Shown in pieces: positions 4,984 to 29,062 of a stretch of DNA of 29,221 nt. The notes beneath the pieces were generated by a model. The model did no database searches. It was not told the DNA's origin and saw only the letters and a list, made by a program, of their open reading frames with translations. The stretch lies in the IMG/VR virus record IMGVR_UViG_3300034119_000450, positions 1-29,221 of that record; one strand, given 5' to 3'. Position 1 is the first letter of the stretch. Each line of letters starts with the position of its first letter. The translations under genes were made by a program, and so were the position numbers. The stretch comes from a virus.

Positions 4984-5388
4984 ATGATTGAAAAGAAAAA
5001 GATTGCGTTGTTGTTCAAAGAAGAAACAACACCTAGTGGTAATGTGCAAAAAGTTGCCAACATTAAGGCTACTCTTGTAAGGTTGAGTGATAAAGAGTTC
5101 AGTTACAATAACAGTAACGGAGAAACTCTGACCTACAAGTTGGCTACAATCACATTCACTGATGAGAATGGAAACAGCCACACCAAGTCTGACATAGTAG
5201 TGTATAACACAAGCTATGAGCAAGGTATGGAGATAGGCCAAACCTACTTAGGTAAAGTTTCAAGAAGCAGAAATGCTGACGGAAGCCCACGCAAACCGTG
5301 GTATACTTTATCAAGCCTTATTGTTGCATCTGAGAATTCTGATGATGACTTTGAGGAGGTTGAGGTATCTGAGGAAATTGGGATATAA
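4984..5388 (+). CDS. Putative OB-fold protein with acidic tail, 134 aa
   Basis: ATG at 4984. The body is strand-rich (ALLFKEETTPSGNVQKVANI, TYKLATITFTDENGN, SDIVVYNTSYEQGMEIGQTY, PRKPWYTLSSLIV) and ends in an acidic tail (SDDDFEEVEVSEEIGI). A five-strand barrel plus an acidic C-terminal tail is the layout of single-stranded-DNA-binding proteins, but no diagnostic motif is visible, so the role is inferred. It is last of the ten early single-gene units. Its tip, E-I-G-I, resembles E-F-G-I at the end of the protein encoded at 9250. Confidence 0.7.
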   Translation: MIEKKKIALLFKEETTPSGNVQKVANIKATLVRLSDKEFSYNNSNGETLTYKLATITFTDENGNSHTKSDIVVYNTSYEQGMEIGQTYLGKVSRSRNADGSPRKPWYTLSSLIVASENSDDDFEEVEVSEEIGI

Positions 5389-5487: not shown

Positions 5488-5489
5488 AA

Positions 5490-5510
5490 CAACTTTAATT
5501 GTAAGAAAAA
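5490..5510 (+). promoter_or_regulatory. Early-array promoter-like element 11, without a following gene
   Basis: CAACTTTAATTGTAAG matches the first box of the array. No start codon with an open frame follows at the usual 30 bases. The first helix of the structured region begins at 5513 instead, so this copy probably drives the non-coding RNA. Confidence 0.6.
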
Positions 5511-6470
5511 GAGTGAGGCTGATTGTGCGGTCAACTAACGGTCAACAGCCGGTCAATGACTGGTACAAGTATATATGCACAGTTGTTGCATACTCACCCG
5601 GGGAATGATCAGACTCATAGTATAGATTATGTGTTACAATTAATAATTAATTGTGCATGAGAGAGTGATGATTAGGGGTTGAGTATTAAACCCTCCAATC
5701 ATTCTTTGGCAATAACAACAGCTCAAGATGCTAGATTTAGCTTACATTACACGTTATATGGCTAACTAACATGAGTACATTAAACACTAACAGTATCACA
5801 CTATACACTAGCTCTATTACTACTATATATATTAGTTAGGGCTTTAGTAATACAGTAAAAGCTTCCGGGAAAGCAGTAATTTCCGGTCACAAGTCCTATT
5901 GTTCAGCATAGTTAACACAGCAGATAGGCATTACCTTTGTTACAGTTTATTAGTTTACTGTGGTGTTGTAGCACCAGGAATAACTAATGGTGGGTTATAC
6001 CTAATAACAATGCTCTTGAACTTCCCGGTTCATAGAGAATCAGCATGTAAGAACCGGGTTTCTGTTGAGCAATAAGATTCAGCTCACAGAGTGATAGTTT
6101 ATTATCACTACAAGGGTAGATAAATGTTACTTTGTAACTGCCATAGTCCGGAGACCTGTCTGGGTAGCAATACCAGATCGGACCGGTCAATGAAAGGCTA
6201 TGGAATGTCATAATAATATTGTTATTATTATTATTACTGTTATAGTACCTAATGAATCTGATTTAACCACAAGGTTTCAGGCATAATCCCTCATTCTGTA
6301 AAGCAGGGGTTGACTTGTGGTTTTATACTCTCATCCAATTGCAGGATATTCTTATGTCAAGTAGGTATAATGGTGTTATACTAAAGCCATCAGCGAAATA
6401 ACAGAATGGACATCAGATAAAGAATATTAAATAGTAAAATCATGCTACAAGGGTTGCAACCTTGTGAGAG
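5511..6470 (+). ncRNA. Candidate large structured non-coding RNA, about 0.8-0.95 kb
   Basis: There is no convincing gene for over 1 kb, but nested helices are dense: 5513-5517/5593-5597, 5522-5528/5577-5583, 5636-5643/5647-5654, 5667-5673/5697-5703 enclosing 5676-5680/5689-5693, 5762-5769/5832-5839, 6011-6015/6067-6071 enclosing 6024-6031/6051-6058, 6091-6096/6103-6108, 6141-6146/6198-6203 enclosing 6147-6150/6179-6182 and 6160-6163/6173-6176, 6265-6273/6314-6322 enclosing 6285-6291/6305-6311, 6365-6370/6376-6381 and 6447-6452/6460-6465. Several (5522, 5549, 5667, 6285) need G-U pairs that would be A-C mismatches on the other strand, so the plus strand is transcribed. It starts just after array element 11. 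The 3' end is uncertain, either near 6326 after a stem followed by TTTTAT, or read-through into the gene at 6506. Size and style recall GOLLD and ROOL RNAs, but I cannot match it to a family. Confidence 0.65.
5529..5557 (+). repeat. Three CGGTCAA repeats
   Basis: CGGTCAAC, CGGTCAAC and CGGTCAAT follow each other at about 11-12-base spacing inside the structured RNA. CCGGTCAATGA recurs at 6183-6193, near its other end. Confidence 0.6.
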
Positions 6471-6505
6471 TACTAATTAAATTATTAACCCTTAAACTTA
6501 TACTT

Positions 6506-6760
6506 ATGGAAACTATTTACTGGACTATGAAGAATGGTCAGAAGATTAATGTTGATGATATGGACATTAATCATCTCCGGAATACTCTCAAAATGCTTAT
6601 TAGAGCTAAGAGAGCTGCATCTACACCTAAGCCTAAGTTTCAGGTGCACGGTGAGATTGCTAGTGAGTTTGCTGATATGGCAAGACTTTATGCAATTAAC
6701 CCTGAGTTGACTTGTACTTGTGATGAAGTACATATATGTCAGCAATGTTCTGATTATTAA
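6506..6760 (+). CDS. Conserved small phage protein with C-terminal cysteines, 84 aa
   Basis: The start is taken as the ATG at 6506 after AACTTATACTT. A GTG at 6464 in the same frame would lie in the hairpin at 6447-6465. The protein begins METIYWTMKNGQKINVDDMD, then HLRNTLKMLIRAKR and a GEIASEFADMARLYA helix, ending in CTCDEVHICQQC, a possible zinc site. The N-terminal pattern W..K.G..I...DM...HL.N...M..R is common among phage hypothetical proteins. It is the first gene after the large RNA region and may be expressed from its read-through. Confidence 0.75.
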   Translation: METIYWTMKNGQKINVDDMDINHLRNTLKMLIRAKRAASTPKPKFQVHGEIASEFADMARLYAINPELTCTCDEVHICQQCSDY

Positions 6761-11191: not shown

Positions 11192-11588
11192 GCTAAAAAC
11201 TTGTGATGGGTGTAATCAAGAAAAGCCCATTTGGAAGAGTAGTGGAACCGGGGGATTAAAGCTATGTAAAAACTGCTGGAGTTGCCACAAAAGCGGAGAT
11301 GCTGAACAGAAACCAACAAACACAATCCCCCGTGTTTCTGCTAAAAGAGCTAAGAAAGATGCTGAGTATGTAAAACTAAGACAAAGATATCTTACTGATA
11401 ATCAGTTATGTGTAATTAAAGTTGCCGGTTGTACTAATGGTGCCACTGACATACACCACACATTTGCTGGAAGTAATAGAGATGCTTTTTACTTAGTTCA
11501 AAGTACTTGGAAAGCAGTTTGTAGAAACTGTCATGATTATATTCATGCTAATCCTGCAGAAGCTAGAACTATGGAATGGTTAAAATAA
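11181..11588 (+). CDS. NinG-like HNH nuclease with zinc finger, 135 aa
   Basis: ATG at 11181. The N-terminal CDGC and CKNCWSC motifs form a zinc site. A basic middle ([20 protein letters not shown]) leads to the HNH region: a C....C pair at CVIKVAGC, then [32 protein letters not shown]. The IHH, the CRNC.D.IH end and the Cys-rich start match small phage HNH proteins related to lambda NinG/Rap, which act in recombination or cut DNA. It lies directly before the transcription-factor-like gene and may cut recombination intermediates or host DNA. Confidence 0.7.
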
Positions 11589-11593
11589 AAACT

Positions 11594-12487
11594 ATGACAG
11601 AAGAATTAAAAATATTACATGAAAAAATACCTGAGTCAACTCCTAGAACTTTAAAACAAATATTTACTAATAAAAAGCTTTGTAAAGAAATACTTAAAAG
11701 AGATATTATTTCTGAAAAACAGCTTGTTACTGAGTATAATATTCCTTTAAGTTATCTTAAAGGATTGAAGTCTAGAAATGTTATCAGTTATTTTAGTACA
11801 AGAGGAGAACTTAATGTCTCTAAAAAAGGATCTAAGTATTATTATTTCTTAGATGAGGTACAAAATTTAATGGGTTATAATATAAAATATAATTCAAGTT
11901 TTGTGTTCCGGTATAACTTAATGAACAGAGTTATTTTAGAATTATCTAAAGAACTTAATCATGACAAGCACACGAGAGTACTTAAAATGTTTCTCAAAGA
12001 TAACAAATCACTAGAAGAGCTTGCTGATATGTTTGATATGAGCCGTGAAAGAGTTACTCAGATATTAACTAAAAGTGCCAATAGGGTTATTTATTTTACA
12101 GCAAGACAGTTTAGAACAGAGGAGCTTGATAGAGAGAGAATATCTCTTTTAAGTGAAAATGAATTACTAAAGAGTCAGAATACACAGTTATATAATAAGT
12201 TCTTAAGAGATAAAGAAAATCAGATAACCAAAGAATTTAATTCTAAACTGCATGTTCAACATTTTCTTAAGCATAGCTATGATATTAAAGATTTAAAGAT
12301 GAGTTACTTGGACTTTGCTTTATCTGTAAGAACATTAAACTGTCTTAAACTAGCTGATATACTCACTCTTGAAGATTTGTTAGTATACAAAAAATCTGAC
12401 TTAATGAAGTTCAGAAACTTTGGTAAGAAATCATTAGATGAACTCTGTTATTGGTTAGAAGATAAGTACAATTGGGTGCTTGAGTAA
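11594..12487 (+). CDS. Transcription regulator: sigma region-4-like HTH fused to RNAP alpha-CTD, 297 aa
   Basis: ATG at 11594 is preferred; an ATG at 11576 overlaps the HNH gene. Residues about 40-90 look like a first helix-turn-helix/wing ([20 protein letters not shown]). About 138-165 carry a sigma-70 region 4.2-like HTH ([20 protein letters not shown]), followed by a coiled-coil linker ([20 protein letters not shown]). About 236-297 match the RNA polymerase alpha C-terminal domain: [20 protein letters not shown], then [13 protein letters not shown]. The alpha-CTD contacts UP-element DNA, and region 4 contacts the -35 box and the beta flap. A single protein with both suggests a phage factor redirecting host polymerase to middle or late promoters. 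That role is inference. Confidence 0.75.
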
Positions 12488-15033: not shown

Positions 15034-15288
15034 ATGGAAGAGCATAAAACACATAAGATTGTAATTTACAATGATGATGTAAATTCATATGAGTATATCA
15101 TGGCTAGCTTGATTAGGTTCTGTAAACATGAGCCTATTCAAGCTGAGCAATGTGCTATCTTAGCACACAATAGAGGAAAGTGCACTGTAAAAACCGGTGA
15201 TTTTATGGATATGTTTGAATTAAAGAATACTTTTGATAACTTAGACATTAAATCAGAAATAGAAGAATATGCAAGTGATATGCATTAA
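15034..15288 (+). CDS. clpS: ClpS N-degron adaptor homologue with very short N-terminal extension
   Basis: ClpS binds proteins with N-terminal Leu, Phe, Tyr or Trp and hands them to ClpAP. The 84 residues align over the whole ClpS core: KIVIYNDDVNSYEYIMASLI, EPIQAEQCAILAHNRGKC, then TVKTGDF. The binding residues N13, D14 and H45 are present at the spacing of E. coli N34, D35 and H66. VNSYEYI resembles the Bacteroidota type (VNTF..VI). Only about nine residues precede the first strand, against about 29 in E. coli, and an in-frame stop four codons upstream rules out an extended start. E. coli ClpS needs that extension to deliver substrates, so this copy may bind without delivering, acting as an inhibitor or decoy. 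Confidence 0.9.
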   Translation: MEEHKTHKIVIYNDDVNSYEYIMASLIRFCKHEPIQAEQCAILAHNRGKCTVKTGDFMDMFELKNTFDNLDIKSEIEEYASDMH

Positions 15289-15550
15289 TGCCGGTAACAA
15301 ACCCAAAAGAATCTCACCATATGAATGGTTAGAAGAGGGTGTAATCTATACAGTAGTGGAAGTAGCCAGAATGAGTTTACAACAAAACAGATATGGCTAC
15401 AGACTAAAAGAAGTTCAGTTGTCTGAACAATCATTTCCTTATGAGTATTATGGTGCTGAAAGATTCATTGCACTAGAACATTTAGCTCAAGCAGCTAAAG
15501 AATCAGAAAAAGTATCTGAACCTCAAACAGCAGATTTAGATTTAGTTTAA
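15269..15550 (+). CDS. Conserved small phage protein, 93 aa
   Basis: ATG at 15269, overlapping clpS by 20 bases. The protein starts MQVICINAGNKPKRISPYEW, then LEEGVIYTVVEVARM, YGYRLKEVQLSEQSFPYEYY and GAERFIALEHLAQA. The order (VICIN.G, a short insert, EG.IYTV.EV, GY.LKEV.L, Y.A.RFI) is a recurrent phage small beta-barrel of unknown role. Its tail (KESEKVSEPQTADLDLV) is disordered and acidic. Coupling to clpS is positional only. Confidence 0.75.
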   Translation: MQVICINAGNKPKRISPYEWLEEGVIYTVVEVARMSLQQNRYGYRLKEVQLSEQSFPYEYYGAERFIALEHLAQAAKESEKVSEPQTADLDLV

Positions 15551-15567
15551 ACTTTAAAAATTTATTT

Positions 15568-15746: not shown

Positions 15747-16196
15747 ATGGAATACACTTATGAAGATGTACTAGAGCAATGTGAAAAGGTTAAAGATCTT
15801 CTTAAGGAAGCAAAGAATAGAAGAAGCTTAGACAGAAGAAACTATCTCATTGCACTTTTGTATTATGAATTTGGTAAAACAGAAGAAGTTATTGGCAAAA
15901 TCTTAAATATGAAGAGAGAAACAGTTACTTCTGCCAAATTTCATCCATATCAGTTACTTGAAAACAATGACAGTCTTTTCATTAACAATGTTAAAGACTT
16001 CATAGAATTATTTCCATATGATTTTCCTAACCATCACTCAGCTAAAAGCTCTAAGAAACAGACTGTTATCAATCTGTATCTAGAAAAAGATGTGACAAAA
16101 AAGTTAAGGCATTATATGGCATTTAAGGACATTTCAAGAATTGATATGGCAGTTAAAGATTTAGTAATTAAAGGCTTAAGATTATGGGAAGAATGA
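15747..16196 (+). CDS. Putative DNA-binding protein (HTH plus ribbon-helix-helix-like end), 149 aa
   Basis: ATG at 15747. About residues 25-70 resemble a trihelical HTH: RRSLDRRNYLIALLYYEFGK, then TEEVIGKILNMKRETVTSAK with FHPYQLLE, similar in outline to the DnaA domain IV style repeat found in phage proteins. About residues 108-146 (VINLYLEKDVTKKLRHYMAF, DISRIDMAVKDLVIKGL) look like a ribbon-helix-helix unit. Two binding modules suggest a replication-origin or transcription regulator. The assignments are by eye. Confidence 0.65.
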   Translation: MEYTYEDVLEQCEKVKDLLKEAKNRRSLDRRNYLIALLYYEFGKTEEVIGKILNMKRETVTSAKFHPYQLLENNDSLFINNVKDFIELFPYDFPNHHSAKSSKKQTVINLYLEKDVTKKLRHYMAFKDISRIDMAVKDLVIKGLRLWEE

Positions 16197-28214: not shown

Positions 28215-28285
28215 TGGATAAAGTTCAAAGTTTAAGTAAAACTAGTAAAGACTTAATGTTGAAACTTATTGTATTTTCTATCTAA
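28214..28285 (+). pseudogene. 5' remnant of a metallopeptidase-like gene cut by the homing endonuclease gene
   Basis: The ATG at 28214 sits in a TAATG junction like the preceding genes. The frame reads MDKVQSLSKTSKDLMLK, then only six more residues (LIVFSI) from inserted DNA before a stop at 28285. SLSKTSKDLML matches SLARTSKTLML at the start of the gene at 29085, whose next residues AEPYYGFF are the true continuation of the family. So the original start was separated from its gene by the 0.8-kb insertion. The endonuclease stop codon falls inside the TTAATG of this remnant. Confidence 0.7.
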
Positions 28286-29062
28286 AAAAATAGTAGCATC
28301 TAAGTAAAGCAAACTAAAAATTTTGTTTATGTTTTGTTTGCCTTGATAAGTTAAAACATGTAATTGAGTAGTCTTGCAGTTTTTAGGATTATATAGTTTA
28401 GTTCTATTAACAGCAAGACTATTTATTAGTATATCTTGTACTTTAATTAAAAAGTCTTTTGGTCCTAACATGCTAAACAAATAATCTTTAGATGTATTAT
28501 TTGCATAAATACAACCATCACCATCAAAGTAACCTCTGATAAAGTGATGTTGTAAATGTTCTGGAACAGTGCATGGAAAACTTAAAGTTGTTCCTTTGTT
28601 TGGATAAAGACCATGTTTAAGTAAGTCTTTTACAAGTTTAGATGAAGTTATTGATAGTTTAGTTTGATTTTGTCTATTTCCTGGTTTATTAATAACTAAT
28701 AATGGACCAGTATAATTAAGATAATTTTTAAACTTTTCTAAAATATTTTTATCCTTTTCTTGTAATGATATGGATATAACTTTATTAGTTACATTACCAT
28801 CTGCATACAGTAGACCAAGATAATAAGCTTTTTCTTCAGTATTTATTTCATTAAAGAAATCTTTATCATGTGTGTATTTTGTAGCAGCTTCAGCTAATGT
28901 TCTAAGTGGTGTTCCAGATTTTTTAATGATTGAATAAATAGTTTGTGGTGTACAATTACATTGTTTTGCTAATGTATAGCATGAATCACCATGAGTATAT
29001 TTATCAATTATTTCTAATTTAGATAAGGGTAATTTATATCCTTTGTTTTGTTTTATAACCAT
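28253..29062 (-). mobile_element. Free-standing LAGLIDADG homing endonuclease gene, 269 aa
   Basis: ATG at 29062. N-terminal about 60 residues contain a resolvase-like HTH (SCYTLAKQCNCTPQTIYSII, then KKSGTPLRTLAEA). The two LAGLIDADG helices are AYYLGLLYADGNV (near residue 80) and HFIRGYFDGDGCI (near 180), about 100 residues apart as in monomeric two-motif enzymes, with a strand-rich saddle after each (VISISLQEKDKNIL, YLFSMLGPKDF). It is encoded against the surrounding operon, has its own Bacteroidota-type promoter and lies between the remnant at 28214 and the restored gene at 29085. It is probably active or recently active. Confidence 0.9.

Follow-up and report, generated by a model that had tools for sequence, protein, structure and literature searches.

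A Putative Plus-Strand Array of Separately Folding RNA Modules in crAss-like Phages

Introduction

Phage anti-defence islands and gene cassette loci combine a single genomic locus with variable cassette content, and the cassettes, which are protein genes, are exchanged between distant phages. Among the RNAs of phages and prophages, GOLLD and ROOL are large and elaborately folded and carry palindromic kissing loops (PMC12286853); GOLLD has a conserved 3′ part and a less conserved 5′ part and assembles through its kissing loops into a homo-oligomeric cage. The Racrs (RNA anti-CRISPRs, PMC10651486) and other phage decoy RNAs are phage-encoded small RNAs.

Here, we describe a locus whose cassettes, in contrast to the protein genes of anti-defence islands, would be folded RNAs. 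It lies in a 29.2-kb virus record, analysed at its full length and referred to as the window, in which a DnaB-like helicase and a primase have crAss-like phages as their best annotated relatives (approximately 28–32% amino acid identity). The locus is like GOLLD and ROOL in being large and elaborately folded, in its phage location, and in its palindromic loops (PMC12286853), but whereas each of those RNAs has one conserved fold, the locus described here is composed of modules that vary from phage to phage, can be reordered, and have swapped arms, and the window has no tRNA. An earlier, sequence-only reading of the window had proposed a large ornate RNA in the style of GOLLD and ROOL. The large, structured, non-coding, plus-strand character of the region has held, and the notion of a single RNA is not supported in the form proposed, since blocks are reordered, lost, and doubled in related phages. 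What is meant to be new is the architecture, in which RNA modules are shuffled and their arms exchanged while the frames stay constant, and the claim of novelty covers Rfam 15, 50,697 phage records, GTDB as scanned with exact patterns, and the open-access literature; large structured phage RNAs without an assigned function are already known company for these modules.

Results and Discussion

A gene-free interval with an excess of plus-strand helices

The region occupies a gene-free interval between a 134-aa gene that ends at position 5388 and an 84-aa gene that starts at position 6506. A perfect plus-strand copy of the early-gene element (AACAACTTTAATTGTAA) at 5488–5504 presumably serves the RNA locus as its promoter element, and the RNA region begins at 5505, directly after the element, as had been read from the sequence. 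Four further plus-strand copies, at 2955, 3689, 4426, and 4937, are found immediately upstream of small early ORFs; in total, five plus-strand copies with up to three mismatches were found versus 0.67 expected. The largest ORFs within 5505–6475 encode 58 aa on the plus strand and 75 aa on the minus strand. Neither shows third-codon-position enrichment of substitutions and both are broken by indels in the close relative L013, in agreement with the earlier statement that the stretch has no plausible gene. The next gene downstream (6506–6760, plus strand), which encodes the 84-aa YWTMKNGQKI protein, bounds the locus in close relatives and lies outside of the RNA; it has 95% nucleotide identity to its counterpart in L003 and homologues in 67 loci.

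Within 5505–6475, the plus strand can form 15 helices (at least nine pairs, at least three of them G-C, with a span of up to 250 nt), whereas 60 dinucleotide shuffles yield a mean of 6.3 and a maximum of 12; the minus strand yields six by the same criteria, which is the chance level. The dense helices of the sequence-only reading (more than 15 between 5513 and 6465) are thereby recovered as an excess over shuffled sequence. The fold of the whole region (5490–6480) has a minimum free energy of −260.4 and z = −3.5, with none of 20 shuffles as good, and module C by itself reaches z = −4.6 on the plus strand and −3.1 on the minus strand. The fold is uneven, with z near 0 in some 240-nt segments, and a few segments outside of the region are equally low. 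Because folding strength is not extreme everywhere, folding energy by itself is no proof, and it is covariation that supplies the proof.

Module matches fall almost entirely in one orientation (142 versus 0 antisense for e3 and 198 versus 0 for k), and in most variable paired columns G-U is more frequent than A-C. Together with the helix excess on the plus strand, these observations uphold the assignment of the RNA to that strand. Covariation, proposed as a check with the earlier reading, gave a concordant result, in that related phages keep the helices by way of compensatory and G-U changes, as scored against in-house shuffles that ignore the relatedness of the sequences.

The same observations bear on the notion that the inverted repeats work as DNA, either as a replication or packaging origin or as a recombination site like integron attC. 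Such an element could account for a single locus per genome, for the inverted repeats, and for interiors that are exchanged cassette-like between conserved ends; however, the bias of G-U over A-C, the helix excess on one strand only, the single orientation relative to genes, and nested insertions that keep RNA junctions intact make a DNA-level element very unlikely. For an integron attC array specifically, the counter-evidence consists of the one-strand helix excess and the G-U bias.

Modules of the window region

Judged by its relatives, the window region behaves as a mosaic of independently folding modules, comprising a 5′ domain followed by modules B, C, D, and E, all on the plus strand. 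The 5′ domain (5505–5890) contains CGGTCAA repeats, the anchors TGCATACT..CCCGGG, TATATGGCTAA, and CTATTACTACTATATA, and a 3′ closing element, GCTTCCGGGAAAGC..TTTCCGGTCA. The anchors are common, in varying number, to L003, L005, L013, L043, L051, L056, L072, and L126. Across about nine phages, the consensus fold of this domain is weak and no convincing one could be derived, with the exception of the 3′ TTCCGG hairpin. Module B (5891–5941) is a small imperfect hairpin (AAGTCCTATTG..CAGATAGGCATTACC), an exact 17-mer of which occurs in 18 IMG/VR contigs; its four distinct sequences show hardly any variation.

Module C (5942–6262), which has the strongest fold, comprises the helix CCATAGTC/GGCTATGG and the GTAGCAATAC hairpin and is common to L003 and L013 only. 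An alignment of modules C and D from three sequences contains 120 consensus pairs, few of which are broken and five of which are changed on both sides, for example from C-G to U-G to U-A. Module D (6263–6322) has a closing helix, ACCACAAG/CTTGTGGT, around ATAAYCCCTCAT..GCAGGGGTTG. All of its consensus pairs are kept across 14 distinct sequences, A-C is absent, and two inner pairs are compensatory (C-G/U-G/A-U and U-G/C-G/U-A).

Module E (6326–6472) starts with the 5′ strand of helix P1, TACTCTCAT (6326–6334), which pairs with GTGAGAGTA (6464–6472), and continues with a conserved 5′ segment, ATCCAATTGCAGG, a hypervariable arm, and a 3′ hairpin. In the window phage, the arm (6348–6447) is a AUAUUCUU..AAGAAUAU helix with branches, to which arms in L020 and L080 are related. 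The hairpin, CAAGG-GUUGCAA-CCUUG (6448–6464), displays the palindromic loop UUGCAA.

Conserved frames and hypervariable arms in modules E and HK

The general layout of E is P1 (TACTCTCA/TGAGAGTA), an arm, and the hairpin CAAGG-RUUGCAA-CCUUG. Over 100 IMG/VR loci contain module E, and fewer contain module D; the 17-base 3′ end of E is found in at least 120 IMG/VR loci, almost always with a matching 5′ end upstream. Exact patterns served to retrieve the E and HK loci. The pattern bases are fixed as a result, and conservation within them is partly by construction. For E, this was partly checked with 19 modules from loci that, the window copy excepted, had not been fetched by the hairpin pattern. 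The scan of these modules demanded AAGG..CCTT, leaving the loop and the closing pair free, and [C/T]AAGG[A/G]TTGCAACCTTG was present in all 19 listed, with T as the first base in L173 only, where it can still pair. The P1 extension of E covaries. Five loci contain an additional inserted hairpin ahead of the 3′ strand of P1; in these, P1 is displaced and extended (ACTCTCATCC.../...GGATGAGAGT or the U-G equivalent).

Module HK, which is absent from the window, was found through recurrent 14-mers in E loci and has at least 120 IMG/VR matches; wherever both modules are present, it lies within about 1 kb of E. It consists of TAATGCACCA, a hairpin with the loop TTCCCAAGG, CAGTTGTAA, a variable arm, and TTACAACTGAGTGCAGAGGG. 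The stems include CTCAC/GTGAG, CCTGA/TCAGG, TCTAC/GTAGA, CTATC/GATAG, TCAGC/GCTGA, and others, and the 11 distinct stems of the hairpin are 96% paired versus 72.5% (maximum 91%) in shuffles that ignore relatedness. At several positions, the outer and arm-closing helices in the right register score above every one of 1000 shuffles; shifted by one base, the outer helix no longer does so. Module G has columns that are fully compensatory; one of them, with seven A-U, six C-G, and three U-A, is paired in 16 of 16 cases versus 7.2 in shuffles. Besides E and HK, modules D, B, G, F, J, M, Q, and R recur in the arrays. In many cases, the two stem strands of the HK hairpin are separated by a nested insert (AAGATGTGAAACYACCTGATTA..TAATCAGCTCCCAAGG), so that one module lies inside another, as in L311 near 5830–6130. 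In L200 (12981–14043), an HK module sits inside a small tRNA cluster (Leu, Leu, Arg).

On sequence comparison, at least two of the modules, E and HK, keep their frames strictly conserved around hypervariable arms. The arms of 101 E modules form 40 families, and those of E and HK, up to 185 nt long with medians of about 68, fall jointly into 137 sequence clusters. Whereas Racrs mimic the host CRISPR repeat, arms of these lengths and this number of clusters are probably not CRISPR repeats. The base of the HK arm (GUUGUAAU../..AUUACAAC) presumably resembles CRISPR-repeat ends, which we take as a lead only.

Hypervariable arms in constant frames, and an early position beside small early genes, would also be expected of an array of antisense or base-pairing sRNAs that reprograms host or phage mRNAs with the arms as seed regions. 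The arms are folded themselves, however, and complementarity to the phage's own genes in the window never exceeds 13 nt, the longest antisense match of the RNA region to the rest of the window and the chance level, so that we regard an sRNA array as rather unlikely. Antisense pairing with the phage's own genes was rejected on the same grounds.

Gain, loss, reordering, and exchange among relatives

The carriers are crAss-like (Crassvirales-type) phages of a broad group for which metagenome contigs are the only source, as they are for all relatives considered here. The close relatives L003, L005, and L013 carry the same flanking genes around the region. Module C matches its counterpart in L003 at about 97% identity, above the surrounding DNA, and is missing from L005 and from L072, the latter having the order A-B-D-E. 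Additional modules stand between A and B in L126 and L056, B comes after E and G in L110, and two E modules are separated by about 800 bp in L013; in L003, E is lost and the sequence past D is replaced by other small ORFs. This loss, gain, reordering, and doubling of whole blocks argues that the modules act as independent folding units in a cassette-like array. Among 102 arrays, there are 49 module orders, and many module pairs occur in both orders. In some close relatives E is the end of the array; in most phages other modules come after it. Sequence comparison shows the window-type locus to be a plus-strand array of RNA modules that fold separately.

Besides the sRNA array, the main alternative is that each phage makes a single large, particle-forming RNA, with folding and oligomerisation as in GOLLD or ROOL, the modules as domains, a swappable periphery, and intermolecular kissing contacts through UUGCAA. 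The size of about 970 nt, the phage location, and the palindromic conserved loop resemble GOLLD, ROOL, and OLE (PMC12286853), and tRNA genes lie near HK in some carriers, such as L200. One fixed fold would, however, hardly tolerate a variable order and solitary or doubled modules; with no tRNA in the window and no match to the Rfam GOLLD and ROOL models, a single large RNA seems an unlikely explanation.

Arms are exchanged independently of their surroundings in many cases. Among the 138 pairs of E modules with a common arm (at least 85% identity), both flanks are unrelated in 106 and both are related in 22, and different arms occur despite common neighbouring sequence in 102 pairs upstream and 236 pairs downstream. 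The E arms of L005 and L088 are 96% identical; the primases of these contigs have 75% and 35% identity, respectively, to that of the window. Across the carriers, the primases have 27–81% amino acid identity to that of the window, and the E 3′ motif is identical nonetheless. On the evidence of these comparisons, there is gain, loss, reordering, and exchange among distantly related phages, both of whole modules and of the arms inside the frames.

With unremarkable z-scores in parts of the region, and with relatives that all come from metagenome contigs, one might suspect chance structure in AT-rich intergenic DNA or assembly mosaics at shared repeats. Covariation and the absence of antisense matches speak against this, as do common arms that are mostly 85–98% rather than 100% identical and come from different samples, and large contigs that show a consistent distance between the locus and DnaB; we consider such an artefact extremely improbable.

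One locus per genome and its comparison with known RNAs

Module E is single-copy in 34 of 35 carrier contigs, with two copies in G004, and where a clear DnaB relative was found, E is on the DnaB strand, 11–21 kb upstream. A mobile-element reading was rejected, as E is single-copy at one genomic position. Searches by blastn of the region, the E module, and the HK composite against 50,697 phage records and of module D against 72,556 plasmids gave nothing significant. In exact-pattern scans of GTDB (84,980 species genomes), a 24-mer of E had no match and a 20-mer of HK matched one contig with phage-like genes (L311, CALMTA010000091.1), which is binned as uncultured Neisseriaceae and is probably a misbinned phage contig. 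The open-access papers on non-coding RNA of crAss-like phages contained no description of such arrays.

At gathering thresholds, the window had no matches in Rfam 15, and E values up to 5 added none that was credible, consistent with the earlier remark that the region could not be matched to a known family. Modules E and HK likewise have no counterpart in Rfam. The GOLLD and ROOL covariance models had no match in the window (E up to 5) or in 11 related loci, and neither did the Rfam models of self-splicing introns and self-cleaving ribozymes. ARAGORN and Rfam found no tRNA, tmRNA, or permuted tmRNA in the window, and permuted tmRNA and RAGATH-20 (RF03048) were both absent from 32 contigs (the window and 31 others, nearly all carriers).

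The gut Crassvirales cr52_1, cr7_1, and cr10_1 each carry a tmRNA gene on the DnaB strand, 12–15 kb upstream of DnaB. In cr52_1 (L312, NC_055888), RAGATH-20 (15878–15980, 119.6 bits) lies in an unannotated stretch about 330 nt upstream of the permuted tmRNA (15172–15552). The position of these tmRNA/tRNA genes is comparable to that of the window-type locus in distance, strand, and nearby gene types, without implying RNA homology, and by analogy suggests that this stretch of Crassvirales genomes may be a place for RNA genes.

In L127 (3212–4597), L110 (7085–8470), and L038 (838–2301), the first large gene to follow the RNA array encodes a DUF2828/DUF7788 protein. The protein, which we take to be akin to Ro60/TROVE, is possibly an RNA-binding ring protein. 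A Ro60-like partner was rejected, given that DUF2828/DUF7788 occurs in only 4 of 52 contigs; the structure prediction is of low confidence (pLDDT 44).

A proposed role for the locus

We favour, as the probable explanation, that the region is the window phage's copy of a once-per-genome, plus-strand modular RNA locus of crAss-like phages that yields early, trans-acting RNAs with exchanged arms. The locus would be transcribed early from the element at 5488–5504, whose promoter-like character points to action early in infection. That frames and loops are conserved among phages whose proteins have diverged strongly argues for a conserved partner, which could be a protein of the phage, a conserved protein of the host, or a second RNA copy bound through the palindromic UUGCAA loop. 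The swapped arms would determine the target, their hypervariability suggesting that it changes, and the free reordering suggests that the modules work separately. The RNAs may be trans-acting decoys or guides directed at host factors, of which defences are the most plausible; such a role would account for the single copy, the early position, the strict frames, and the fast turnover of arms. For action in trans, and on defences, our evidence is the pattern of evolution, and a decoy role like that of other phage RNAs is supposed here.

The interchangeable folded pieces suggest RNA tools that may be exchanged in the contest between phages and bacteria. A more tentative extension, possible though not the likelier outcome, is that the locus is the RNA counterpart of a phage anti-defence island, in which conserved frames display exchangeable recognition arms and specificity is swapped by recombining RNA cassettes, not genes.

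The locus would add a set of structured RNA families, and a mode of RNA evolution in which the frame is constant, the arm is swapped, and the order is shuffled, in phages related to those viruses that are most abundant in the human gut. The modular layout at a single locus makes function testable by individual module, and if the modules act against host defences, they would constitute a large store of RNA-based counter-defence, overlooked by annotation that centres on proteins.

Other genes of the window

Three further genes of the window were noted. A 224-aa ORF on the minus strand (1185–1859) matches Pfam ATE_C, the C-terminal domain of arginyl-tRNA-protein transferase (E = 6e-8), which is unexpected in a phage. 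A LAGLIDADG-type endonuclease gene (28253–29062, minus strand) lies on the strand opposite to most other genes. The 303-aa protein encoded at 11576–12487 on the plus strand appears sigma factor-like by eye (SRERVTQIL motif); in gut Crassvirales, too, an annotated sigma factor is found downstream of the tmRNA.
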